A stretch of 64,000 nt of DNA from Luteimonas deserti (GTDB lineage: Bacteria > Pseudomonadota > Gammaproteobacteria > Xanthomonadales > Xanthomonadaceae), in NCBI RefSeq assembly GCF_013425765.1, contig NZ_JACCJZ010000013.1:248001-312000 (forward strand), read 5' to 3'. The notes beneath the pieces are model-generated. The model ran no database searches and was not told where the DNA came from. It worked only from the letters and a program-made list of their open reading frames with translations. This document shows, in pieces, positions 12,367-41,902 of this stretch. A program made the position numbers and the translations under genes. The stretch's first letter is position 1, and each line of letters opens with the position of its first letter.

Positions 12367-13731
12367 TCAGGCCGCGGCCCGTTCGGGTTCCGGCGCAGGT
12401 ACGACCGGCAGGCGCATGCTGAAGCGGGCGCCTTGTCCGGGAGCACTGTCGACGGTCAAGGATCCGCCCGCATCGGCCATCAGGCCAGCCACGACCGCCA
12501 ACCCCAACCCGGTGCCCTCGCCGGGAGGACGGGTGGTGAAGAAGGGTTCGAAGATCTGCGCCTGCAGCTCGTCCGGGATGCCGTGCCCGGTATCGACGGC
12601 ATCCAGCCGGACGTGGCCATCGGCATCGGGCGAGCCCAGCACGAGGGAGAAGCGGCCACCCTCCGGCATCGCCTGCGCCGCGTTCGCGGTGAGGTTGAGG
12701 ACGGCGAGCGCGAACTGCGCCCGGTCGAACATGATCGGCACCGCCGTATCGGGCAGATCGAGCTCCAGCGGGATCCGCGGCCCGAGCGTCTGCCGCAGCA
12801 TCGGCACGATCTCGCGCAGCGCGTCGACGGCGTCGAAGCGTTCGAGCTGGCGTGCGTCGTTGCGCGCGAACGCCAGCAGCTTGTGGGTGATCGCGGTCGC
12901 ACGGCGCACGGCCATCTCGAGGCCGCCGAGCACGGCGTCGATCTCGCTGATGTCCCGGCTGCGACGCCCCCGCTCCACGTAGCCCAGCATCAGCGTCAGC
13001 AGGTGATTGAAGTCGTGGGCGACGCCGCTGGCCATGCGCCCGACCGCCTCCACCTTCTGCGCGTGCAGGAGTTGGGCCTGCGCGCGCTCGCGCGCGACGA
13101 TCTCGTCCGAGAGCCGGCGGTTGGTGTCGGCCAGCGTGACCGCCTGGCGCGTCGCCTCCGAGAGGCTGTTGCGCAAGGCGCTCGAGGTGCGGTCGACGAC
13201 GATGGTGATCAGCAGGAACATCACGGTGCGCACGCCGACGTCTGCCATCGCCTCCGACAGCGGTTCGCCGGTCCGCGTGGCATCGCTGTGGCCGCCGAGC
13301 ACCATCGCCGCGACCAGGACCGCGAACATCGCCCACAGCGCGCGCCGGCCCACCATCATGCCCGCGACGAACAGCCACATGACCTGGATCGGCTGCTCGA
13401 AGGTATGCGACATCAGGCCCGCCATCGCATACGAGACCAGCATCATCGCGGCCACCACCACGAGCATCTGGCGGATGGCCCACTGGAAGCGTCCGCGCCG
13501 GATGAGCACCAGGGACCAGAGCGCGATCGCGCTGATGACCAGGCTCGTGACCAGGGAGGCGGTCTCGCCCGGGCGCCACGCCAGACCGCTGCCGAAGACG
13601 CGATAGGCCCACAGCAACGGCGGGATCGAGGCGAGCAGACCCAGGACCACCTGCAGCATCGGCGCATTGCGGCGGTCCACCGGATCCTGGATGCGTGGCA
13701 CATCGAGCCAGCGGGTCATTACAGAGGGCAT
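12367..13731 (-). CDS. Membrane sensor histidine kinase
   Basis: A 454-residue kinase. The N-terminal third carries about six hydrophobic segments (roughly residues 25-180) with no large periplasmic loop, then a coiled linker (about 190-228). The phosphoacceptor His239 lies in SGVAHDFNHLL, and the ATP-binding domain has the N box LTANAAQAM, G1 DTGHGIPDE, F box FEPFFTT and G2 GTGLGLAVV. The HDFNN-like H box is typical of NtrB/hybrid-type kinases. It lacks its own receiver domain, so it must phosphorylate a separate partner; the orphan regulator at 1141-1854, on the other side of the envelope operon, is the nearest candidate. The gene converges with the DUF11 operon with almost no gap. Confidence 0.88.
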   Translation of the reverse strand: MPSVMTRWLDVPRIQDPVDRRNAPMLQVVLGLLASIPPLLWAYRVFGSGLAWRPGETASLVTSLVISAIALWSLVLIRRGRFQWAIRQMLVVVAAMMLVSYAMAGLMSHTFEQPIQVMWLFVAGMMVGRRALWAMFAVLVAAMVLGGHSDATRTGEPLSEAMADVGVRTVMFLLITIVVDRTSSALRNSLSEATRQAVTLADTNRRLSDEIVARERAQAQLLHAQKVEAVGRMASGVAHDFNHLLTLMLGYVERGRRSRDISEIDAVLGGLEMAVRRATAITHKLLAFARNDARQLERFDAVDALREIVPMLRQTLGPRIPLELDLPDTAVPIMFDRAQFALAVLNLTANAAQAMPEGGRFSLVLGSPDADGHVRLDAVDTGHGIPDELQAQIFEPFFTTRPPGEGTGLGLAVVAGLMADAGGSLTVDSAPGQGARFSMRLPVVPAPEPERAAA

Positions 13732-28630: not shown

Positions 28631-28642
28631 CAGGCCGCCGTG

Positions 28643-29572
28643 ATGCTGGGAACCAGAAAAACCGCCACGCCCGCGATCGACGGCGCTGTCGCCCAGGGTG
28701 TGAGCTACGAGCTGACGCTGGCCGAGCGCGCGCGGCGCAGTGAGAAACGCGCGTGGGCGGTCGCCTGGTGCGCGATCGCGATGTCGCTGTTGCTGGCGGG
28801 TGGCTACTTCCTGTTCCTGCCGCTCAAGGAGCGCGTGCCTTACCTGGTGATGGCGGATCCGTACACCGGGACCGCGAGCGTCGCCAGATTGACAGGCGAC
28901 TTCCACGACCGCGATGTCACCACCGAGGAGGCGATCAACAAGAGCAACGTGGCGCAGTTCATTCTCGCCCGCGAATCCTACGATTCGGGTCTGATCGGCC
29001 AGCGCAACTGGCGGACGACGTTGTCGATGGCGGCCGCGGGTGTGGCACCGTCCTACATGAGCCTGCATTCGGACCAGAACCCGGAGCGGCCGGCGCGGCT
29101 GTATGGCGCCACGCGCTCGCTGCGGATACGAATTCTGAGCATCGTCCTGATCGGTGGAGGCGAGGGCCGGCGACCCACCGGTGCGACGGTGCGTTTTCAG
29201 CGCAGCATTTTCGACAAGTCGAACGGGCGCGCCCAGCCGCTCGACAACAAGATCGCGACGCTCGAGTTCACCTACAACGCGGACCTGCGGCTGAGCGATG
29301 AGGACCGCCTGCTGAACCCGCTCGGTTTCCGGGTCACGAACTACCGGGTCGACAACGATTTCGGCGCGGGCCCGGTGCCCGAGCGCGACGTGCCGGCCGC
29401 ATCTTTGCCCGCGGCGCCCGGGGCCGGCACGCCTCCGGCCCAGGACATGCTGTTCGACCCGGGAGCCGATGTGGGCGGCATGGCGACCGAAGGTGCCGTG
29501 CCGTGGTCTGGTGACGCGCCGCCCACCGCCCAGTCGCCCCCGGCGTCCAGTAACGGAGTAACCGAACGATGA
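28643..29572 (+). CDS. virB8: T4SS inner-membrane protein VirB8
   Basis: Bitopic inner-membrane scaffold of the secretion channel. The 309-residue protein has a cytoplasmic N terminus, one membrane helix (about 37-59, ending SLLLAGGYFLFLP) and a periplasmic VirB8 domain (about 60-230) with NKSNVAQFILARESYD. The last ~75 residues are a Pro/Ala-rich tail (LPAAPGAGTPPAQD) not found in the shorter VirB8 of conjugation systems, giving a long family member. ATG 28643 has AGG eight bases before it; GTG 28640 is also in frame. Its TGA overlaps the ATG of virB9 (ATGA). Confidence 0.93.
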   Translation: MLGTRKTATPAIDGAVAQGVSYELTLAERARRSEKRAWAVAWCAIAMSLLLAGGYFLFLPLKERVPYLVMADPYTGTASVARLTGDFHDRDVTTEEAINKSNVAQFILARESYDSGLIGQRNWRTTLSMAAAGVAPSYMSLHSDQNPERPARLYGATRSLRIRILSIVLIGGGEGRRPTGATVRFQRSIFDKSNGRAQPLDNKIATLEFTYNADLRLSDEDRLLNPLGFRVTNYRVDNDFGAGPVPERDVPAASLPAAPGAGTPPAQDMLFDPGADVGGMATEGAVPWSGDAPPTAQSPPASSNGVTER

Positions 29573-30339
29573 CGTGTTTCAGGAAGACGTGGTTCGCGCT
29601 CGTGATGTGCGCGCTCCTGTCGGCGATCCCGCTTCACGCGTCTGCGCAGGTCGTCGAGGAGTACGTCTACCGGCCCGACGAGGTGTACCAGGTGCGGACC
29701 GGGCTCGGTATCGCCACCCAGATCGAGCTCAGTCCCCACGAGCAGGTGCTGGACTACAGCATGGGATTCAGCGGCGGCTGGGAGATCAGCCGGCGTGACA
29801 ACGTCTTCTATGTCAAGCCGCGCAATGTCGACGTCGATACCAACTTGTTGGTGCGGACAGCGGCACATGCCTACATCTTCGAACTCAAAGTGGTGGCGAC
29901 GGACTGGCGCGCCCTGACCCAGGCGCGTGCGGCAGGCGTGCAGTACAAGGTCCGCTTCACCTACCCGAGCGACACCCGGTTCTCCGCCGCGAACGATGCG
30001 GCCGTCGAGGAGGTGACCGAACTCAGCACCCGGGTCCACCCCGACCGCGACTACTACTTCCAGTACGAATACACCCAGCATCGGAAGACGCCCCGCTGGC
30101 TGGTGCCGGCGACGGTGTACGACGACCGCCGTTTCACCTACATCCGCATGGGGGACCGCACACGTTTTCCCAGTGGCAACTTTCCCGCAGTCTTTGCCCG
30201 CGAGGGTGAGAACGGCGACGAGTTCGTGGTCAATTCCACGGTGGAGGGCGACACCATCGTGGTCCACGGCACATATCCGTATCTGATCGTCCGGCACGGC
30301 CGGAATGTGGTCGGACTGCGCAGGAGCCCCGAGCTGTGA
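29569..30339 (+). CDS. virB9: T4SS core complex protein VirB9
   Basis: Periplasmic component of the outer-membrane core ring with VirB7 and VirB10. The 256-residue protein has a signal peptide cut after ASA (about residue 26). The N-terminal domain includes YVYRPDEVYQVRTGLGIATQ, GFSGGWEISRRDN and YVKPRNVDVDTNLLV; the C-terminal beta-sandwich (about 160-256) carries TVYDDRRFTYIRM and the final VVHGTYPYLIVRHG, the segment that binds VirB7 in this family. It begins inside the virB8 stop (ATGA) and its own stop overlaps the GTG of virB10, so translation of virB8-9-10 is tightly linked. Confidence 0.95.
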   Translation: MTCFRKTWFALVMCALLSAIPLHASAQVVEEYVYRPDEVYQVRTGLGIATQIELSPHEQVLDYSMGFSGGWEISRRDNVFYVKPRNVDVDTNLLVRTAAHAYIFELKVVATDWRALTQARAAGVQYKVRFTYPSDTRFSAANDAAVEEVTELSTRVHPDRDYYFQYEYTQHRKTPRWLVPATVYDDRRFTYIRMGDRTRFPSGNFPAVFAREGENGDEFVVNSTVEGDTIVVHGTYPYLIVRHGRNVVGLRRSPEL

Positions 30340-31535
30340 ACGAACGTCCTTCGCCTCCCGGCGACACCGTGCAGCCGGCAGGTGCGCCTGCGGGCAATCC
30401 TTACCAGGACCGTGTGGCGCCCACGCCCGCGGATCTCGACGCCGGCGCCCCCTATCTGCAGACCGCGGAGGTGCAACGGCTCAATCGCAAGGCCCTTGTG
30501 TTCCTGGGCGCGATCGTGCTCGTGCTGGGCGCGTTTGCCGTGTGGCTGTTTTCAGGTGACAGCTCCGCGCCAGAGGCCGCACGTGCGCGTCCCCAGGCCG
30601 AGCAGATCGTCATTCCGGCGGCACCGCGTGATCTGCCCGAACTGCCTGAGGCCCGGCCGGCGCCGCCGCCGGAGTTGCCGCCACTGCCGGTCATCGATGA
30701 CGAGCGCAGCGCCGTCGCCGGGGGCGGCATGCCCGGCGCAGGCCTGGCCGGCGACATGTTCTCCGGAAGCGAGATCAGCTCGCTGCTGGAGCGTCGCATG
30801 CAGGACGCATCGATGGACCGGGACGGCGATACCGGGGCTGGCGCCGCCGGCGGAGCGAACGCCGGTCTGATGGCGGGCATGATGCCCGGGCAGATGGAAG
30901 AAAGCCGCGGGCCGCCCTCCGGGCCCACGTCCGCGCAGCCGCTCTACAACCCCGACACGCTGCTGCTGCGTGGCACGTACATCCGTTGCATCCTGCAATC
31001 GCGGGTGATCAGCGATTTCCCCGGCTACACCTCGTGCATCGTCACCGAGCCGGTGTACTCCGTGAACGGACGTCGCCTGCTGCTGCCGCGCGGCTCCAAG
31101 GTGATGGGTTACTACAACTCGGACAGCGTCATCGGTGACCGCGCCGCGATCGTCTGGGACCGCATCACCACGCCTACGGGTCTCGACGTCAACATGATGA
31201 GTCCGGGCGTCGATGCACTCGGTGCGGCCGGCAACGAGGGCCACTACACCGCGCATTGGGGCCAGCGCATCACCTCCGCGCTGCTGATCAGCATGCTCAG
31301 CGACGCGTTCAAGTACGTGGGCGCGAAGAACGGGCCGCAGTCCACCACCTTCGGGGGCGGCGGCTTCGCGGTGCAGAACCCGTACGAGAGCAACACCGCG
31401 CGCACGATGGAGCGCCTGGCCAACCTTGCCCTCGAGCGCAACATGAGCCGGCCGCCGACGGTGACCATCAACCAGGGAGCACTGCTCAACGTCTATGTGG
31501 CCCGCGACGTCGACTTCTCCGCGGTCGTGCGGTGA
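30336..31535 (+). CDS. virB10: T4SS channel protein VirB10
   Basis: Spans both membranes and lines the channel. The 399-residue protein has a cytoplasmic N terminus, one inner-membrane helix (about 53-73), a Pro-rich periplasmic linker (about 100-125, PPPELPPLPVIDDE) and the C-terminal TrbI/VirB10 beta-barrel domain (about 205-395) with LLLRGTYIRCILQSRVISDF, TEPVYSVNGRRLLLPRGSKV and NQGALLNVYVARDVDF. Start is GTG 30336 overlapping the virB9 stop (GTGA). The virB11 gene follows after 12 bases. Confidence 0.95.
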   Translation: MNERPSPPGDTVQPAGAPAGNPYQDRVAPTPADLDAGAPYLQTAEVQRLNRKALVFLGAIVLVLGAFAVWLFSGDSSAPEAARARPQAEQIVIPAAPRDLPELPEARPAPPPELPPLPVIDDERSAVAGGGMPGAGLAGDMFSGSEISSLLERRMQDASMDRDGDTGAGAAGGANAGLMAGMMPGQMEESRGPPSGPTSAQPLYNPDTLLLRGTYIRCILQSRVISDFPGYTSCIVTEPVYSVNGRRLLLPRGSKVMGYYNSDSVIGDRAAIVWDRITTPTGLDVNMMSPGVDALGAAGNEGHYTAHWGQRITSALLISMLSDAFKYVGAKNGPQSTTFGGGGFAVQNPYESNTARTMERLANLALERNMSRPPTVTINQGALLNVYVARDVDFSAVVR

Positions 31536-31547
31536 GCGCCTGAATCG

Positions 31548-32585
31548 ATGGACAGCACGCCCGCCCCGGTCGCCCAGGTCTCGAACCAGTTCCTCGAGTA
31601 CCAGTACGAGGTGCTCGGCATCGGCCGGCACATGCAGTCTTCGGACGTCACCGAGATCTGCATCAACCGTCCCGGCGAGCTGTACCTCGAAACCCGCGAC
31701 GGCTGGCAACGGATGGAAGTGCCGTCGCTGACCTTCGAGCGGGCCCGCCAGTTCTGCACATCGATCGTCAACGAGAGCAATACCGGGCAGCGCATCACCG
31801 ACGTCGACCCGATGGTGTCGCTGACGTTTCCGACCGGGCAGCGGGCTCAATTCGTGATTCCACCCGCCTGTGACAGCGGCCGGGTGTCGATCACCATCCG
31901 GCTGCCGGCGAAGTTCAGCAAGTCGCTCGAGCAGTACGACCAGGACGGCTTTTTCGACGAGATTCTCGAGCAGGCTCCGTCCATAAGCGAACACGACCAG
32001 GAACTGCTGGTCCTGCGCCGTGAGCGCAACTATGCCGAGTTCTTCCGGCGCGCCGTGCGATACCACAAGAACATCGTGGTGGCCGGCGCCACCGGCAGCG
32101 GCAAGACCACGTTCATGAAGTCGCTGGTGAACCACATTCCCGAGCAGGAACGTCTCGTGACGATCGAGGACGCGCGTGAGCTGTTCCTCACCCAGCCGAA
32201 CGTGGTGCACCTGCTGTATTCCAAGGGCGGACAGAGCGCGAGCAACGTCACCGCCAAGACCTGCATGGAGGCCTGCCTGCGCATGAAGCCCGACAGGATC
32301 ATCCTGGCCGAGCTGCGTGGCGACGAATCCTTCTACTTCATCCGCAACTGCGCCTCCGGCCATCCGGGCTCGATCACCAGCTGTCATGCCGGCAGCACCG
32401 GTCAGACCTGGGACCAGCTGGCCCTGATGGTCAAGGCGTCGGCGGAAGGATCGGGTCTCGAATTCGAAGTGATCAAGCGCCTGCTGCGGATGACCATCGA
32501 CATCGTGGTCCACATCAAGGCCCATGCCGGACGCCGCTACATCACCGGGATCGACTTCGACCCCGAGCGGAGCCTGGCGGCATGA
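31548..32585 (+). CDS. virB11: T4SS hexameric ATPase VirB11
   Basis: Cytoplasmic secretion ATPase that switches between pilus assembly and substrate transport. The 345-residue protein has the N-terminal domain (about 1-150), Walker A AGATGSGKTT with Lys186, the Asp box VTIEDARELFL, Walker B-type RIILAELRGDE and the His box SCHAGST. All catalytic features are intact. The stop codon overlaps the ATG of a 30-codon frame (ATGA at 32582-32585) that leads to virB1. Confidence 0.96.
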   Translation: MDSTPAPVAQVSNQFLEYQYEVLGIGRHMQSSDVTEICINRPGELYLETRDGWQRMEVPSLTFERARQFCTSIVNESNTGQRITDVDPMVSLTFPTGQRAQFVIPPACDSGRVSITIRLPAKFSKSLEQYDQDGFFDEILEQAPSISEHDQELLVLRRERNYAEFFRRAVRYHKNIVVAGATGSGKTTFMKSLVNHIPEQERLVTIEDARELFLTQPNVVHLLYSKGGQSASNVTAKTCMEACLRMKPDRIILAELRGDESFYFIRNCASGHPGSITSCHAGSTGQTWDQLALMVKASAEGSGLEFEVIKRLLRMTIDIVVHIKAHAGRRYITGIDFDPERSLAA

Positions 32586-32674
32586 GCGAGTTGATCGACC
32601 ACCGTTGGCCTCAGTCCGCAATGGCGGGCGCGGATGCATCCCGCAGGGCCGCACCGAGCAGGGAGGGCCGCTGA
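32582..32674 (+). CDS. 30-codon coupling ORF between virB11 and virB1
   Basis: A tiny frame that fills exactly the gap between virB11 and virB1. Its ATG overlaps the virB11 stop (ATGA), and its TGA shares an A with the virB1 start (TGATG at 32672-32676). The predicted peptide starts MSELIDHRWPQ and is Arg- and Ala-rich, with no domain. The geometry is that of a leader or relay ORF that hands ribosomes from virB11 to virB1. The virB1 site GGGAGGG lies inside its 3' end. It may have no function as a peptide. Confidence 0.45.
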   Translation: MSELIDHRWPQSAMAGADASRRAAPSREGR

Positions 32675-33510
32675 TGCTGCCAGGTCTGGAACTGATGGGC
32701 TGCACGGGGCTCGCCGTGCCCGCAGAGGTGATGCATCACGTGGTGCGCGTGGAGTCCTCCTACAACCCCTATGCGATCGGCGTCGTGGGTGGCCGCCTCG
32801 CCAGGCAGCCGCGCAGCCTCGGCGAGGCGGTCTCGACGGTTCGCATGCTGGAGCAGGGCGGCTACAACTATTCGCTCGGCCTGGCGCAGGTCAACAAACA
32901 CAATCTGGCCGCATACGGATTGCAGAACCACGAGCAGGCGTTCGATATCTGCCCGAACCTGCGCGCCGGCTCACGGATTCTGGCCGAGTGCTACGGCCGC
33001 GCCGGCCGTGACTGGGGCAAGGCGTTCAGCTGCTACTACTCCGGCAATTTCGTCACCGGCTTCCGACACGGTTATGTGCAGAAGGTGTTCGCCTCATGGA
33101 GCGCAGTCGGTGCCGCGCAACCGGGCAGCGCGGTTGCTTCTGCGATCCCCGTGATCCCTCGCGCGGCCCCGGGCAGCGTAGCGGCGGTCGCGATCGACGC
33201 GGGTGCGTCGGTCGTCGCACGCCGAATTCAGGAGGCGAACAGTCAGCGCGGTGCCGCTCCGCTGACTGCAGCGCCCGCCCCCGAGGGTGACGTCACCGAC
33301 AGCGGCGCGGGTCACGCTGCAATCGCTTCGGCGCGACCGGGGACAGCCGCGCCCTCTGACAACGCGGAGGGGCCCGTTCGCGTGCAGCTGGTATCGGCTG
33401 CGCCGCGGGCTGCGCGATCGACAGCGCCTGCTCAGCCGGCCCAGCTTCGGCGAACCGAAGCCGATTCCCAGCCGGCAGCGTCGCAGCGGGATGCGGCATT
33501 CGTGTTCTGA
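32674..33510 (+). CDS. virB1: T4SS lytic transglycosylase VirB1
   Basis: Peptidoglycan lytic transglycosylase that opens the cell wall for assembly of the machine. The SLT fold covers about residues 15-145: catalytic Glu27 in HVVRVESSYNPYAIGVV, GYNYSLGLAQVNKHNLAAYG, CPNLRAGSRILAECY and YYSGNFVTGF. The remaining ~130 residues are a disordered Ala/Pro/Ser-rich tail. No clear Sec signal peptide precedes the catalytic domain at this start (MLPGLELMGC), so how it reaches the periplasm is not evident. ATG 32674 has GGGAGGG upstream. The position after virB11 instead of at the operon front is typical of Xanthomonadales systems. Confidence 0.92.
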   Translation: MLPGLELMGCTGLAVPAEVMHHVVRVESSYNPYAIGVVGGRLARQPRSLGEAVSTVRMLEQGGYNYSLGLAQVNKHNLAAYGLQNHEQAFDICPNLRAGSRILAECYGRAGRDWGKAFSCYYSGNFVTGFRHGYVQKVFASWSAVGAAQPGSAVASAIPVIPRAAPGSVAAVAIDAGASVVARRIQEANSQRGAAPLTAAPAPEGDVTDSGAGHAAIASARPGTAAPSDNAEGPVRVQLVSAAPRAARSTAPAQPAQLRRTEADSQPAASQRDAAFVF

Positions 33511-34247: not shown

Positions 34248-36710
34248 ATGCTGGCGCCCGATATCTCGATTACCGAGTTCATTCCGCTTTCGGCCCATGT
34301 GTCGCCGAACGTGATCAAGACGACGGGCGGTGACTACCTGCTGACCTGGCGGCTCGACGGCCTGCCGTTCGTCGGCCGGGAGGAATGGGAGCTCGAGCAC
34401 CGGCACGGCACCTTCAACAGGATGCTGCAGACGTTGCGCGCACCGGACTTCGTCAACGTCGCGTTCTGGGTGCACGACATCCGGCGCCGCGGCCGGGTCA
34501 GCATGGGGGGGCATCAGCGCCAGCCTTTCAATCAGGATCTCTCGGACGCCTACCTGGCCGCCTTGTCCGCGCAGAAGATCATGCAGAACGAGCTGTACCT
34601 GACGATGCTCTACCGCCCGATCGTCAGCGGCAAGAAATTCGTCGAGAAGTCAACCAACCTCACGCGTCTGCAGGCCGAGCAGGACCAGGCGGTCGCCAAG
34701 CTTCTCGAGCTCGTGGGTAACGCGGAGGCGGTGCTCAAGGATTACGCGCCTGCGCGGCTCGGGATGTACGAGGCCGAGAACGGTGTGGTGTTCTCCGAAA
34801 CGCTGGAGTTCTTCGCCTATCTGCTCAACCGGATCCAGGAACCGGTGCCGGTCCTCAGGGCGCCGATCTGCGACTACCTGCCGGTGAGCCGGCATACCTT
34901 CTCGGCCCGGACGGGTGATTTCGTGGTCACCACGCCCGGTGGCAGCAACGAGTTCGGCGCCATTCTCAACATCAAGGAGTTCACCGACGCCACGTGGCCC
35001 GGCATCCTCAACAATCTCAAGTATCTCGATTTCGAGTACGTCATCACCCACTCGTTCAGCCCGATGGGGCGACAGGACGCACTCAAGGTGCTGGACCGCA
35101 CCAAGGGCATGATGATTTCGTCGGGCGACAAGGCGGTGAGCCAGATCGCGGAGCTCGATGGCGCGATGGACCAGGTCGCGTCCGGCAACTTCGTGCTGGG
35201 CGAGTACCACTTCATCATGGCGCTATACGCGGCCGACCAGCAGACGCTCGCCCACAACATCTCGGCGACGCGGGCCGAGCTGTCCAACGCCGGCTTCATC
35301 TCGGTCAAGGAGGATCTGGCGGTCTGCGCCTCGTTCTACTCGCAGCTCCCCGGCAACTGGAAGTTCCGTACGCGTCTGGCCAATATCAGCTCGCTGAATT
35401 TCCTCGGTCTGTCGCCCCTGCACAACTTCGCCACCGGCAAGCGCGACAACAATCCCTGGGGCGACGCGGTCACGGTATTGCAGACGACGAACGGGCAGCC
35501 GTACTACTTCAATTTCCACGCCACCCATCCGGCGGAGAATTCACTCGGCGAGAAGGCCATCGCCAACACGATGGTCATCGGCAAGTCCGGCACCGGCAAG
35601 ACCGCGCTGATCAACTTCCTGCTGAGTCAGGTCCAGAAGTTCGATCCGGTGCCCACGATCTTCTTCTTCGACAAGGACCGCGGAGCGGAGATCTTCGTGC
35701 GCGCCTGCGGCGGGGCCTATCTGGCGCTCGAGAACGGAGAGCCGACCGGTTTCAACCCGTTCCAGTGCGAGGCCACGGACGCGAACGTGCAATTCCTGGC
35801 GGGGCTGATCAAGGTCCTCGCGGGCAAGAGCCACTACTCGGCGCGCGAGGACGAGGACATCTTCCGCGCCGTGGAGAACATCCTCGACATGCCCCTGCCG
35901 CTTCGCAGCATGAGCAATTTCCAGAAGAGCCTTCCCAACATGGGCGACGACGGTCTGTATGCGCGTCTGCGCAAGTGGACCGCCGGCAATGCGCTGGGCT
36001 GGGTGTTCGACAATCCGGCCGACATCATCGATCTGGAGCGCGCGAGCATCATCGGGTTCGACTACACCGAAGTGCTGGACAATCCCGAGGTGCGGGTCCC
36101 GGTCATCAACTATCTGCTGCATCGTCTCGAAGGACTGATCGACGGGCGGCGCCTGATCTATGTGATGGACGAGTTCTGGAAGATTCTCGACGGCGGCGGC
36201 GCCTTGAAGGACTTCGCGAAGAACAAGCAGAAAACCATCCGCAAGCAGAACGGCCTGGGGATCTTCGCCACTCAGAGCCCGGAGGATGCGCTCTCGAGCG
36301 ATATCTCCGCAGCGCTGATCGAGCAGACCGCGACCCTGATCCTGCTGCCCAATCCGAACGCGGCGCGCGACGACTACATCGAAGGCCTCAAGCTTACCGA
36401 GGCCGAATTCGAGGTCGTGCGCAGCCTGGACGAGCGTTCGCGCGCGTTCCTCGTCAAGCAGGGCCATGCATCGGCGGTCTGCCAGCTCAACCTGCGCGGT
36501 ATGGACGACGTGCTCGCAGTGATCTCGTCCAGTACCGACAACATCGAGGTGATGCACCGCGTCGTCGACGCGGAGGCTGCCCGACAGGGCGTCGACCGGT
36601 CGGACCTCGCGCCGCCCGATTGGTTGCCCGCATTCTACGAGCAGCGCAAAGGCTCCGGCCGCGCACCCGCCGCCCGCACGTCCGGCGGGCGCCGGAGCGT
36701 CACCGCATGA
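34248..36710 (+). CDS. virB4: T4SS ATPase VirB4
   Basis: The largest ATPase of the secretion system; it acts at the inner membrane to power pilus biogenesis and transport. The 820-residue protein has the CagE/TrbE/VirB4 N-terminal domain (about 1-400), Walker A IGKSGTGKTALINF with Lys451, and Walker B LIYVMDEFWKIL at about 637-647, then ATQSPEDALSSDIS in the arginine-finger region. Length and motifs are standard. Its TGA overlaps a possible upstream ATG (36707) of virB5. Confidence 0.96.
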   Translation: MLAPDISITEFIPLSAHVSPNVIKTTGGDYLLTWRLDGLPFVGREEWELEHRHGTFNRMLQTLRAPDFVNVAFWVHDIRRRGRVSMGGHQRQPFNQDLSDAYLAALSAQKIMQNELYLTMLYRPIVSGKKFVEKSTNLTRLQAEQDQAVAKLLELVGNAEAVLKDYAPARLGMYEAENGVVFSETLEFFAYLLNRIQEPVPVLRAPICDYLPVSRHTFSARTGDFVVTTPGGSNEFGAILNIKEFTDATWPGILNNLKYLDFEYVITHSFSPMGRQDALKVLDRTKGMMISSGDKAVSQIAELDGAMDQVASGNFVLGEYHFIMALYAADQQTLAHNISATRAELSNAGFISVKEDLAVCASFYSQLPGNWKFRTRLANISSLNFLGLSPLHNFATGKRDNNPWGDAVTVLQTTNGQPYYFNFHATHPAENSLGEKAIANTMVIGKSGTGKTALINFLLSQVQKFDPVPTIFFFDKDRGAEIFVRACGGAYLALENGEPTGFNPFQCEATDANVQFLAGLIKVLAGKSHYSAREDEDIFRAVENILDMPLPLRSMSNFQKSLPNMGDDGLYARLRKWTAGNALGWVFDNPADIIDLERASIIGFDYTEVLDNPEVRVPVINYLLHRLEGLIDGRRLIYVMDEFWKILDGGGALKDFAKNKQKTIRKQNGLGIFATQSPEDALSSDISAALIEQTATLILLPNPNAARDDYIEGLKLTEAEFEVVRSLDERSRAFLVKQGHASAVCQLNLRGMDDVLAVISSSTDNIEVMHRVVDAEAARQGVDRSDLAPPDWLPAFYEQRKGSGRAPAARTSGGRRSVTA

Positions 36711-36745: not shown

Positions 36746-37498
36746 ATGAGCACCACCACGCCCCGTCCCGGCGCGCCCGCGCGTCTTGCCCAGGATTTCG
36801 AACGCACGTTCGGCATCAGTGCCCGCTGGCCGCGTATCGGGCGTCGCGTCTCGCTCGGCCTCGCGATCGCCGCGATACTGGCCACGGGGGCCGCCGCGGC
36901 GGCCTGGCAGGTCAACGACCAGAGGGCGGTCAGTGAGCTCCAGCGGATCCGCCAGGGCGTTGGCGGAGGAACCAGTGCGAACGCGGTGGGCGAGTTGCAG
37001 AGCCTGAACTCGAAGCTCCAGCTGGACATCCGCTCTGGCGGCGAGACGGCTGACGTGCTCGAGGCGCCGACAGGTGACGGCCGCCTCGACAGCGCCCCCA
37101 CCGCATCGATGGCCCGGATCGAGACTCTCTGCCCGACCGGCCCCTCCACCACGCTGGGCGAACAGCAACGCCTGCTCTGTCAGGAGCTCGTCCGTACCGA
37201 GCTGGCGCAGTACGCCTTCTCGATGAAGATGTTCGAGCGCGCCGCCGAACATCATCGCAAGTTGCAGGAGATCGAGCAGCGCAGGCGCGGGTTGGGCGAG
37301 AAGGACTACGGAGACCTGCAGTACAACACCAACGAATTGCTGGCGCTGACCGCGCTCATGGACAACGAGCGGGATCGCTACCAGACCTACATGCGGGCCT
37401 ACGAGGCACGCATCGCGCACATCAAGCACGCTCAGGTCGCCCTGACCAGGAACGCGTTCAAGGGTGGGGGCGGACTAACCCTGCCCGTGTCCCTCTAA
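36746..37498 (+). CDS. virB5: Probable T4SS VirB5 (minor pilus subunit)
   Basis: A 250-residue protein assigned mainly by position between virB4 and virB6. The N terminus (about 1-35, basic) is followed by a hydrophobic helix VSLGLAIAAILATGAAAAAW that is either an uncleaved anchor or a late signal. The mature part is mostly alpha helical with a Cys pair (ETLCPTGPS and RLLCQEL) and a long charged coiled coil (HHRKLQEIEQRRRGLGEKDY). VirB5 proteins are helical bundles at the pilus tip and vary widely in sequence. ATG 36746 follows GGAGGG; ATG 36707 overlaps the virB4 stop and would add 13 residues. Confidence 0.75.
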   Translation: MSTTTPRPGAPARLAQDFERTFGISARWPRIGRRVSLGLAIAAILATGAAAAAWQVNDQRAVSELQRIRQGVGGGTSANAVGELQSLNSKLQLDIRSGGETADVLEAPTGDGRLDSAPTASMARIETLCPTGPSTTLGEQQRLLCQELVRTELAQYAFSMKMFERAAEHHRKLQEIEQRRRGLGEKDYGDLQYNTNELLALTALMDNERDRYQTYMRAYEARIAHIKHAQVALTRNAFKGGGGLTLPVSL

Positions 37499-37518: not shown

Positions 37519-38502
37519 ATGGACGGCTTGGCTGGGTTCGTGCAATGGGCGTTCTTCTCGCTCGTCTTCGAATTTGTGAACAACCAGATCGAAGGATTCC
37601 AGTCAGGCCTGTTGCAGCGCGGGACCAAGTGGGTCAGCGGGATGGCGTTCACCCTCTGCACGCTGTGGGTCTTCATGCAGGGCTTCATGATCGTGACCGG
37701 TCGCAGCCGGGAATCGATGATCGGCCTCGTGGTGGGCTCGCTCCGGGTCTTTCTGATCGTCACTGCGGCGACCGCGATGTCGTTCGCGGGAACGGATCTC
37801 ACGAAGTTTCTCGGCGATGGCCTCCCGGCCGAGGTCAACAAAGTGGTCACCGGAACGGACGACGACCCCGCCAAATCGATCGATCGCAACCTCAAGGTCA
37901 TGGGCCTGATCTTTGCACTGATCGACCGTATCGACACCGGGCCAAGCGATCCGGTCAATGGCCAGAGCCAATCGCGAAGCATCACACTGATGGGGATCGG
38001 CATCGCCGGCCCTTCGGTCATCGGTGGTGCGATGCTCCTGCTCTATAAGATCGCGCTCGTCCTGTTCGTCGGGTTCGGCCCTTTGTTCATCCTGTGCCTC
38101 GTCTTCGATCAGACGAAGGACCTGTTCAAGCGATGGCTGTTGTACGGGGTAGGAACTATGTTCAGTCTTGCGGTGCTTTCGTTCATGGTGTCGGTCGCGA
38201 CGAAGCTCGTCGCCATCACGTCGGCAGCGCTGCTTCTCCAGTATCAGGTCGCCTCGAACATGGGGATCGATGGTGGAGGTCTGAATGCGGCTGCGATGCA
38301 GCAGGGAGGTATCGGGCTGCTGATGTCGGTATTGATGGTCATGGCCCCTCCGATGGCAGCGATGTTCTTCAATGGCACGCTTGGTCAGTTCGCAGCGAAC
38401 TCCAGCTTTGGTAGTGTCGGACGTAACAGCTCGGGCCAGGTTTCCGATTTTGAACAGAAAACAGTGCCTCGAGTAAGGCAGGATAATATCGAGACTAAAT
38501 AA
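37519..38502 (+). CDS. virB6: T4SS polytopic inner-membrane protein VirB6
   Basis: Central inner-membrane channel protein of 327 residues. Five or more hydrophobic segments are visible: about 45-62, 70-92, 160-195 (GGAMLLLYKIALVLFVGFGP), 200-235 and 275-295. The TrbL/VirB6 pattern FVGFGPLFILCLVFDQTKDLF is clear, and a long periplasmic loop lies between the second and third segments. The stop codon shares a base with the start of the next gene (TAATG), so the DUF4189 gene belongs to this operon. Codon use begins to shift to lower GC toward its 3' end. Confidence 0.93.
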   Translation: MDGLAGFVQWAFFSLVFEFVNNQIEGFQSGLLQRGTKWVSGMAFTLCTLWVFMQGFMIVTGRSRESMIGLVVGSLRVFLIVTAATAMSFAGTDLTKFLGDGLPAEVNKVVTGTDDDPAKSIDRNLKVMGLIFALIDRIDTGPSDPVNGQSQSRSITLMGIGIAGPSVIGGAMLLLYKIALVLFVGFGPLFILCLVFDQTKDLFKRWLLYGVGTMFSLAVLSFMVSVATKLVAITSAALLLQYQVASNMGIDGGGLNAAAMQQGGIGLLMSVLMVMAPPMAAMFFNGTLGQFAANSSFGSVGRNSSGQVSDFEQKTVPRVRQDNIETK

Positions 38503-39008
38503 TGAATGATAAGTGCTTGGGATTTGAAGCGGGCTGGTTTTTGTTTTCGGCGGTGGGGGCCCTCGCGGTGATGCTTGGAGGTCTCTCATTCAGTGCTTTT
38601 GCCCAGCAACCAGGGTCTAACCAATACAATACGGTTTTTCTTCCTGCACATAGCGCCGGGGATACAATCCGAGAAAATCTCGAAAGTCGGTGGGGCGCCT
38701 ACGCTCTTAGTAGTCCGGATCCGAGTACGGGTATTAGTGTTACCGGATTCGTAGCGGCTCGCGCTTCTCTCGAGGAGGCGAAAAACGCTGCTATAACTCA
38801 TTGTACCGAGCGCGGAGGTACGGATTGTGCGGTGCCGGAGGGTTATGTGTTCCGAGACACTTGCGCTGTGGCAACCACTGGGCCAGGGCGAGGCAACTTC
38901 GTTCAGGACTCCAATCTCCGCAGAGCTCGTCGCTACGGTCTTCGTTCGTGCGGTAAAGGTTGCAGAGTACTCTGGGAGGCCTGCTCGTTGCCGTCGCGCG
39001 GTGACTAA
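38502..39008 (+). CDS. Exported DUF4189 protein at the end of the virB operon
   Basis: A 168-residue protein with a signal peptide (hydrophobic stretch about 10-32, cut after SAFA). The mature part is a DUF4189 domain: RWGAYALSSPD, an AKNAAITHCTERGGTDC segment, DTCAVATTGPG and CGKGCRVLWEACS, with six cysteines that fit disulfides in the periplasm. DUF4189 has no proven function. It is joined to virB6 by TAATG, so it is co-expressed with the secretion machine. Its position, export signal and the decayed second copy next door make it a candidate immunity or accessory protein; that is inference. The base composition is less GC-rich than in the T4SS genes before it, suggesting a different origin. 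Confidence 0.8.
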   Translation: MNDKCLGFEAGWFLFSAVGALAVMLGGLSFSAFAQQPGSNQYNTVFLPAHSAGDTIRENLESRWGAYALSSPDPSTGISVTGFVAARASLEEAKNAAITHCTERGGTDCAVPEGYVFRDTCAVATTGPGRGNFVQDSNLRRARRYGLRSCGKGCRVLWEACSLPSRGD

Positions 39009-39256: not shown

Positions 39257-39530
39257 TCACCCGAGCAATGCTCTCAGCTTCATAACGTAAGCAGGCCCAT
39301 GGACCAGTGGATCGATAGCCGACGCGCCCAGCTTGTCGCCATCCAGGCGCACGGTAGCTTCAATGTCGACCCATCTGACGTCGAGTCGGAGTTGGCCGGT
39401 GCCCACCCGGATATCGATGCCGCCGTGGACCGTCATGCCCCATGAATTGCCGAGGGCGAGCCGACTGCCGGACAGTGCGCCGCGGGTATCCTCGCTGGAG
39501 AATGCGGTGTAATTGACGCCCACTCCAAGC
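39257..39530 (-). pseudogene. 3' fragment of an ompW duplicate
   Basis: The translation LGVGVNYTAFSSEDTRGAL through PAYVMKL aligns over its whole length with the C-terminal ~86 residues of the intact ompW product 800 bases downstream, in the same orientation, with about three quarters of residues the same. Homology starts abruptly at about 39530, where the sequence changes to the truncated DUF4189 gene of the other strand. There is no start codon region or signal peptide, so it cannot make a working porin. Confidence 0.85.
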
Positions 39531-39548: not shown

Positions 39549-39862
39549 TTGGAGATACAACGCCAAATCGACCGAAGAGGTGGGGCGCGTTTGCCGGAAG
39601 CGAATCAGATGGTGCTTCGGGGGTAGGCCTAGACAAGCGCAGTCGAGCGTCTGCGGAAAGAGCCGCGATGGCGCAGTGCAGGAATGCCGGTGGAATGAAC
39701 TGTGAAGTTTTCTTCGTATTTCTCAACCAATGTGGTGCGGTCGCGTCCACAGCTACAAACAGCACTTGGGCGCGAGGCCCAACTCTTTCTGATGTTCGAG
39801 ATCAGGCGATGAGCGGATGCAAATCCCGCGAATGCTCAATTATTTTCGAACATTGTCTGTAG
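39549..39862 (+). pseudogene. 5'-truncated DUF4189 gene
   Basis: The frame reads GDTTPNRPKRWGAFAGSESD, then AERAAMAQCRNAGGMNCEVF, FLNQCGAVAS and CKSRECSIIFEHCL, a complete DUF4189 domain that aligns with the intact copy at 38502-39008 from its GDT...RWGA segment to the end. No signal peptide or start codon lies upstream in this frame; the frame runs open into the ompW fragment on the opposite strand. The only ATG is internal at 39668 and would give a half domain. The gene has therefore lost its 5' end at the recombination joint. Confidence 0.75.

Positions 39863-40065: not shown

Positions 40066-41902
<1,837 letters not shown>

Follow-up and report, generated by a model that had tools for sequence, protein, structure and literature searches.

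The DNA analysed here is a 64,000-nucleotide stretch of the genome of Luteimonas deserti (contig NZ_JACCJZ010000013.1, positions 248,001 to 312,000; hereafter the window), which carries an operon for a type IV secretion system (T4SS) of the kind called X-T4SS. Directly behind virB6 in this operon lies a small gene of the DUF4189 family (D1; 38502..39008, forward strand). Genes of this family, called D wherever they occur in X-T4SS loci, are a near-universal and hypervariable part of the X-T4SS operon in the order Xanthomonadales, and not the odd gain of a single genome. We tentatively propose that D1 is an exported protein that protects its carrier from the X-T4SS of sibling cells, in a manner resembling the entry exclusion of conjugation, and put the probability of this reading at about 0.42. 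Protection at the level of the machine fits because D is adjacent to virB6, carries a predicted export signal, is diversified and under selection, is exchanged and stacked in arrays, is almost confined to genomes that have the machine, and is independent of the neighbouring effector.

D1 encodes a protein of 168 amino acids that matches DUF4189 (PF13827) in Pfam with 40.4 bits, against a curated cut-off of 25 (E = 4.8e-10), with the domain covering residues 64-161 (38691..38984). The virB6 stop codon, TAA, occupies 38500-38502 and the ATG of D1 begins at 38502, which gives the one-base overlap that an earlier, sequence-only reading of this DNA had described. That reading spoke of a gene fused into the operon. 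D1 is indeed built into the operon, but it and virB6 are separate open reading frames. The description of the product as exported and cysteine-rich also holds. AlphaFold places an N-terminal helix at residues 9-29; behind it, as judged by eye, lies an AFA/QQ site, and export is predicted on these grounds. D1 also retains all six cysteines that are invariant, or nearly so, in the domain. An export signal is likely, and motif counts alone give 35 of 310 D proteins a lipobox-like motif. The AlphaFold2 model of D1, based on 110 family sequences, has a mean pLDDT (predicted local distance difference test) of 83, with block means of 90-98 across residues 61-168. Its best match in the PDB is 7NHZ (VIA Z 11.4, root-mean-square deviation 2.6 over 95 residues; Foldseek rank 1, E = 0.014); the remaining Foldseek and VIA matches had Z values of 4.5 or less and were not used. 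7NHZ is the DUF4189 protein Rv1813c, with two beta-beta-alpha-beta lobes, two disulphides and a fold that was new when described (PMC10269737). Rv1813c is a secreted mycobacterial protein, for which the relevant passages of that paper mention no T4SS context and offer nothing on function to carry over. The fold of D1 itself gives no indication of function.

The distribution of D follows that of the machine. Across 398 genomes of the order, with an X-T4SS genome defined by a VirB4 of at least 70% identity, DUF4189 was detected in 115 genomes and a relative of the window VirB6 in 123. DUF4189 is present in 107 of the 114 X-T4SS genomes versus eight of the 284 others (Fisher 1e-77, although genomes are not independent). 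We mapped 140 loci with profiles built from the window's genes. These loci are the listed places of VirB6, several per genome; fragments inside an already fetched stretch were not repeated, and a listed partial match on its own contig (G262:C18) was left out. The sequence-only reading had in part staked its case on DUF4189 recurring beside virB6 in other genomes, and among the listed loci it does so behind 124 of 138 full-length virB6 genes, within 800 bp and on the same strand, with a median gap of 245 bp between the VirB6 and DUF4189 domains. D was found behind virB6 in 101 of 108 cases where virB4 and virB10 were also recognised, in 20 of 21 with virB5 but not both of those genes, and in three of nine where virB6 stood alone. 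The distance from virB6 stop to D start has a median of 14 bases, and the two genes touch or overlap in 36 of 151 cases. A further 75 named loci, reduced to 49 by dropping 26 duplicates, have D behind 38 of 45 full-length virB6 genes. The seven without D comprise a virB6 at a contig end (L297), full operons in Luteimonas (L261, L275, L290) and Lysobacter (L271), and two virB6 genes without the adjoining rest of the operon (that of L299 and the second of L267). At the level of the class, DUF4189 occurs in 16 of 369 genomes; two of these (G000, G023) belong to the order, and the other 14 have no VirB6 of this kind within about 1.5 kb on each side.

Such close attachment to the machine would also be expected if D were an accessory or assembly factor, whether a partner of VirB6 or VirB5, a gate or a pilus-tip factor, with the extra copies arising as by-products of recombination. 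The position behind virB6, the near absence of D from genomes without the machine, the way in which it travels with virB5 and virB6, and its partial correlation with VirB6 (below) are all in keeping with this explanation. We nevertheless regard it as distinctly unlikely, partly because seven X-T4SS genomes have no D. Five of these have all eight of the virB genes sought; in the other two, virB4 of G125 contains a stop, and virB8 to virB11 were not recognised at the locus of G225. Among the matches listed, no other gene was seen to fill the slot in D-less operons.

Few genes of the operon vary as much as D. Of 88 loci in which all genes were present, 68 were kept on the basis of VirB4 identity, and in these the median distances were 0.79 for VirB5, 0.70 for D, 0.53 for VirB6 and 0.19 for VirB4. 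The mean column entropy was 2.5 bits for D and 2.8 for VirB5, compared with 1.6 for VirB6 and VirB10, 0.9 for VirB9, and 0.5 for VirB4 and VirB11. In the same 68 loci, D tracks VirB6 beyond what four backbone genes account for (partial Mantel 0.30, p 0.002), and when a larger set is compared by the best-matching D of each locus, all pairs together give a partial correlation of 0.36. When shared D was taken as an identity of 0.7 or more anywhere in the array, and pairs were limited to those with VirB4 identity of at least 0.93, D was shared by 14 of 21 pairs alike in both VirB6 and VirB5, three of 15 alike in VirB6 only, one of 10 alike in VirB5 only, and 19 of 210 alike in neither. VirB6 itself varies most in hydrophilic loops near alignment columns 85-150 and 230-250; in relatives, the loop between helices 2 and 3 is large and periplasmic (PMC6536674).

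Hypervariability is common to D and the pilus protein VirB5, and D is predicted to be exported. Both features could point to a surface or secreted factor diversified by phages or by some other pressure on the T4SS pilus. This is highly improbable, since D does not track VirB5 once VirB6 is allowed for (partial correlation 0.06, p 0.11; 68 loci), and close D alleles are under purifying selection. Two simpler matching schemes were also considered. A one-to-one match of D to VirB6 is weakened, as most virB6 fragments are near-identical to the VirB6 of their own locus while D differs. A match of D to VirB5 fails in that its partial correlation vanishes with VirB6 included, though pairs alike in both proteins share D most.

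Individual loci have between 0 and 11 D matches, where a broken gene may count as more than one match, and 285 of 287 matches lie on the strand of virB6. Accompanying these arrays are 36 virB6 fragments that lack the 5' part but reach the C-terminus, and D follows 32 of them. For 28 fragments a full virB6 of the same locus was available for comparison, and 25 of them share at least 80% identity with it, which is less telling for some fragments that are short and confined to the conserved C-terminal part. Identity between the D genes behind these fragments and the first D of the locus is no more than 36-68%. Because most fragments are near-identical to the local VirB6 while D differs, they look like arms for homologous recombination by which new D genes entered. 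Exchange between strains is suggested by positional differences between loci: of 37 listed inter-locus D pairs with identity of at least 0.90, 15 consist of a copy that is first in one locus and non-first in the other. The dN/dS ratio (nonsynonymous to synonymous substitution rates) in these pairs is 0.04-0.49, rising to 0.60 in pairs with identity down to 0.72, though four Stenotrophomonas loci (L137, L276, L282, L292) supply many of the pairs. Since these close alleles include array members, the purifying ratios indicate that interior D copies are kept by selection. D copies are therefore diverse, probably exchanged and maintained, which is unexpected of the recombination by-products that an accessory factor would leave. 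Nor would a subunit be expected to differ as much as D does, with identities of 39-45%, among loci whose VirB6 is near-identical.

In the Xanthomonas loci that we read, the repeated unit of the array consists of a virB6 fragment, D, a likely lipoprotein gene and an XVIPCD effector gene. Xanthomonas euvesicatoria has a broken chromosomal cluster with four virB6 copies (PMC10432156), and cassette arrays like these would explain them. At 19 fetched sites (L067, L121, L180, L185 and 15 others) the trio virB5-virB6-D stands with no further virB gene recognised, with about 9 kb covered on each side, less at contig ends. Several of these trios are in genomes that also hold a full operon, and they are possibly exchangeable modules of pilus tip and channel. 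Another small gene for an exported product, marked by a DPFVFCT-like motif, recurs near effectors in L064 (about 12997-13351), L180 (from about 10756) and L081 (17049-17414, in a reversed locus).

The neighbouring effector is not what D matches. As 77 of the 92 effectors fall into one loose family, the comparison rests on pairs at 80% identity or more. Where effector N-domains are at least 80% identical, the D genes preceding them have a median identity of 0.42 (90 pairs), on which D as the partner of the adjacent effector was rejected. In each of the 10 module pairs whose D proteins are at least 0.8 identical, the effectors are alike as well (0.87-0.98), as linkage would also produce. Because D does not follow the effector, machine-level protection is more likely than classical, effector-specific immunity.

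Arrays of orphan immunity genes are known from type VI secretion systems (T6SS) and from contact-dependent inhibition (CDI)/Rhs systems, where immunity-like genes are stacked, diverse and exchanged. D arrays share these properties, but the fragment repeated in them is that of a machine gene, virB6, and not of a toxin. A T6SS-like repertoire of this sort is nevertheless the basis of another explanation, in which D acts in the periplasm to inhibit peptidoglycan hydrolases, either the X-T4SS effectors of rivals or VirB1. The four effectors of the Xanthomonas units that were compared with Pfam combine XVIPCD with peptidoglycan-binding domains, and one lipoprotein belongs to the lysozyme-inhibitor LprI family. 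Genomes with more XVIPCD matches also have more DUF4189 matches (Spearman 0.56 in 73 genomes, in part a reflection of phylogeny). Purifying selection on close D alleles, array members included, and the like effectors of the 10 D-alike module pairs would both be compatible with an inhibitor. We consider this explanation unlikely, because closely similar effector N-domains are found behind such different D genes, because the units read already have a likely lipoprotein inhibitor gene in front of the effector, and because the interrupted DUF4189 genes of two genomes without a machine (below) are ill-suited to protection from rivals. The known X-Tfi immunity proteins (XAC2610 and the LprI type) are, like D, exported and encoded in X-T4SS loci before effectors. 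Unlike them, D is as a rule not a lipoprotein, going by motif counts, does not follow effector type and is tied to virB6.

The absence of D is associated with few recognisable effectors. An XVIPCD open reading frame was present in the fetched stretch of none of 10 D-less loci, compared with 90 of 127 loci with D, a count that omits loci without recognised virB4, virB5, virB6 and virB11 or with less than 3.5 kb behind virB6. Whole-genome searches covered 80 of the 114 X-T4SS genomes, the 34 left out all having D. The seven D-less genomes gave 0, 0, 1, 1, 1, 3 and 4 XVIPCD matches, a median of 1, versus 6 in the 73 with D (p 0.0026). The association is confounded with phylogeny, since eight of the nine D-bearing genomes whose VirB4 is 83-100% identical to that of the window, the window's own genome included, have no XVIPCD match and the ninth has one. 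A lipase-like gene of effector type is found in all nine, and is absent from the two D-less X-T4SS genomes of the genus.

If D does confer exclusion-like self-protection, the process might run as follows. The X-T4SS of a neighbouring cell would dock on a cell carrying D, and a D of matching type in the periplasm of the target would block either completion of the channel or delivery. On the side of the attacker, VirB5 and the loops of VirB6 would be the candidate partners. We infer the periplasmic location of D, its disulphides, the block to delivery and the partner in the attacker, and the step from pattern to function is likewise taken by analogy with entry exclusion, the most similar known process. 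In conjugative systems, eex has a virB5-like and a virB6-like gene as its neighbours and trbK is flanked by trbJ and trbL, and such exclusion genes are dispensable for transfer itself (PMC8923210). TraS of F acts against the VirB6-like TraG of the donor (PMC12624023). The genes for TrbK of RP4 and Eex of IncN plasmids thus adjoin virB5- or virB6-like genes as D does, with the difference that conjugative exclusion concerns DNA, while the cargo of the X-T4SS is protein toxins. Extended to the family, the proposal would be that X-T4SS-associated DUF4189 proteins are exclusion factors in a machine-level system of self-recognition, their types gained and switched through the virB6 homology arm in the manner of a repertoire. 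This broader statement is a shade less probable than the one made for D1.

Several observations weigh against exclusion. Its main weakness is the loose match of D to VirB5 and VirB6. The correlation between D and VirB6 may be linkage, because adjacent genes recombine together; for best-matching D it drops to 0.09 among the closest loci (169 pairs with a VirB4 identity of 0.96 or more). D is also correlated with VirB4 once the other backbone genes are allowed for (0.23). Seven of the 21 pairs alike in VirB5 and VirB6 share no D. In the comparison of L110 and L243, VirB6 is identical (1.00) and VirB5 nearly so (0.93), but the single D of each locus is only 0.42 identical to the other, although one of the genomes (G101) has a second D elsewhere. 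L075 holds a tandem copy of a 3' piece of virB4 together with virB5-virB6-D, in which VirB5 and VirB6 are 100% identical and D is 39% identical. D is not indispensable to effector-bearing strains, as two D-less genomes have several XVIPCD matches (four in G231, three in G346). DUF4189 genes with stops occur in two genomes without a machine (G219, a draft of many contigs, and G278), which speaks against their being kept as free-standing immunity. Stops are also present in single DUF4189 copies of genomes with the machine (G061, G140); of the other six DUF4189-bearing genomes outside the X-T4SS set, G199 and G317 have weak matches, a single frame in G362 holds two domains, and the frames of the last three are short (130-148 amino acids). 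Finally, the exclusion proteins TrbK, Eex and TraS are inner-membrane proteins or lipoproteins, whereas D looks soluble, is cysteine-rich and occurs in arrays. Searches for kinship of D1 with them returned only DUF4189 in Pfam, sub-threshold matches of the signal region in NCBIfam, and nothing in PADLOC.

Work on Xanthomonas citri offers a setting for such a protein. A mutant without nine effectors and eight immunity loci survives the wild type, and the protection responsible was still to be characterised (PMC10933484). The genes from virB7 to XAC2609 are on one mRNA, with XAC2611, a hypothetical gene in the literature, between virB6 and XAC2610; after deletion of a leader, virB6, XAC2611, XAC2610 and XAC2609 show no significant rise in expression, unlike the rest (PMC7286519). 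In planta, expression of T4SS genes and other nearby hypothetical open reading frames fell, while that of XAC2611 was kept (PMC3953393). In Xanthomonas prunicola, virB6 is followed by D, a homologue of XAC2610 (4QTQ, E = 1e-133) and an XVIPCD effector gene whose product has a GH19-like match below the Pfam cut-off. Because the gene behind this D is the XAC2610 homologue, XAC2611 in the X. citri order virB6-XAC2611-XAC2610-XAC2609 holds the slot of D, and its probable DUF4189 nature is read from this position and not from its sequence. With the protection uncharacterised and XAC2611 in that slot, we propose a gene of the XAC2611 type as a candidate for it. We found no paper on DUF4189 together with type IV secretion, the DUF4189 papers retrieved not being about X-T4SS by title, and the best-ranked matches on exclusion or sibling protection in X-T4SS held no other paper on the gene.

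The window itself records one replacement of D. All virB genes of its operon lie on the forward strand, in the order virB8, virB9, virB10, virB11 and virB1 (28640..33510), virB4 (34248..36710), virB5 (36746..37498) and virB6 (37519..38502). Most were identified with Pfam, virB6 as TrbL/VirB6 with E = 2.7e-23; virB5 was named by position, and in related operons its profile hits the gene flanked by virB4 and virB6. VirB4 is 70-86% identical in the other X-T4SS genomes counted. The second, decayed DUF4189 gene that the sequence-only reading saw behind D1 was recovered as D2 (39560..39862, forward strand). Its frame contains the full domain without stops and outscores D1 in a profile search of the genome (68.4 bits, E = 2.3e-18, versus 6.0e-10 for D1), while its start and signal sequence are lost. 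That search found no further DUF4189 match in the genome. Between D1 and D2, on the reverse strand, is a putative remnant resembling the 3' part of an ompW-like gene (39257..39523, from translations judged by eye), and an ompW-like gene (40066-41001) and a GAPDH-like gene, both also named by eye, follow downstream. A blastn search at 1e-5 gave no DNA alignment between the remnant and the ompW-like gene.

The closest VirB6 found is that of G391, a genome of the same genus, whose only D sits directly behind virB6. This D has 89% amino acid identity to D2 over 104 residues and 31% to D1, while the two genomes are 84% identical in VirB4, 67% in VirB6 and 49% in VirB5. Since the sole D of G391, in the virB6 slot, is related to D2 and not to D1, D1 is a newcomer that took the slot behind virB6, and D2 the older gene, which lost its start. 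The suggestion of repeated gain at the end of the operon thus finds support in this pair, as it does in the arrays and displaced alleles of other genomes. From ompW onward, the window and G391 align at 82%, this stretch beginning about 0.2 kb behind D2 in the window versus about 5.9 kb behind D in G391. A lipase-like effector-type gene (G391:C14:144639) lies between D and ompW in G391, in a stretch that is missing from the window. The window's genome carries a relative of that gene, with a likely lipoprotein gene in front, on another contig (C18:134656; L322, 806-2709), and relatives of these two genes are close to X-T4SS in other genomes. An XVIPCD profile search of the window's genome (G000) gave no match, so that a diverged secretion signal in the lipase-like gene is possible.

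The lower GC content claimed for D1 is real, but the contrast is mild. D1 has a GC content of 0.558 and the seven other measured virB genes 0.634-0.689, but virB6 is itself already low at 0.579, and over 160 loci, where the first DUF4189 gene is lower than virB6 in 110, the mean difference is only 0.025. At loci L187, L194 and L195, in genomes of the same genus, the X-T4SS, or in G329 only a virB6 piece with a stop, precedes genes resembling a nuclease, ompW and GAPDH. This is the arrangement of the window, but there DUF4189 is absent.

The virB6-adjacent D is a near-universal, hypervariable and concrete candidate for the sibling protection that was left uncharacterised in X. citri (PMC10933484). 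If the proposal is correct, an exclusion repertoire would explain how X. citri siblings survive without effector-specific immunity, and kin recognition by a T4SS weapon would share its logic with conjugative entry exclusion. The D types of a strain would then help to predict which strains kill which.
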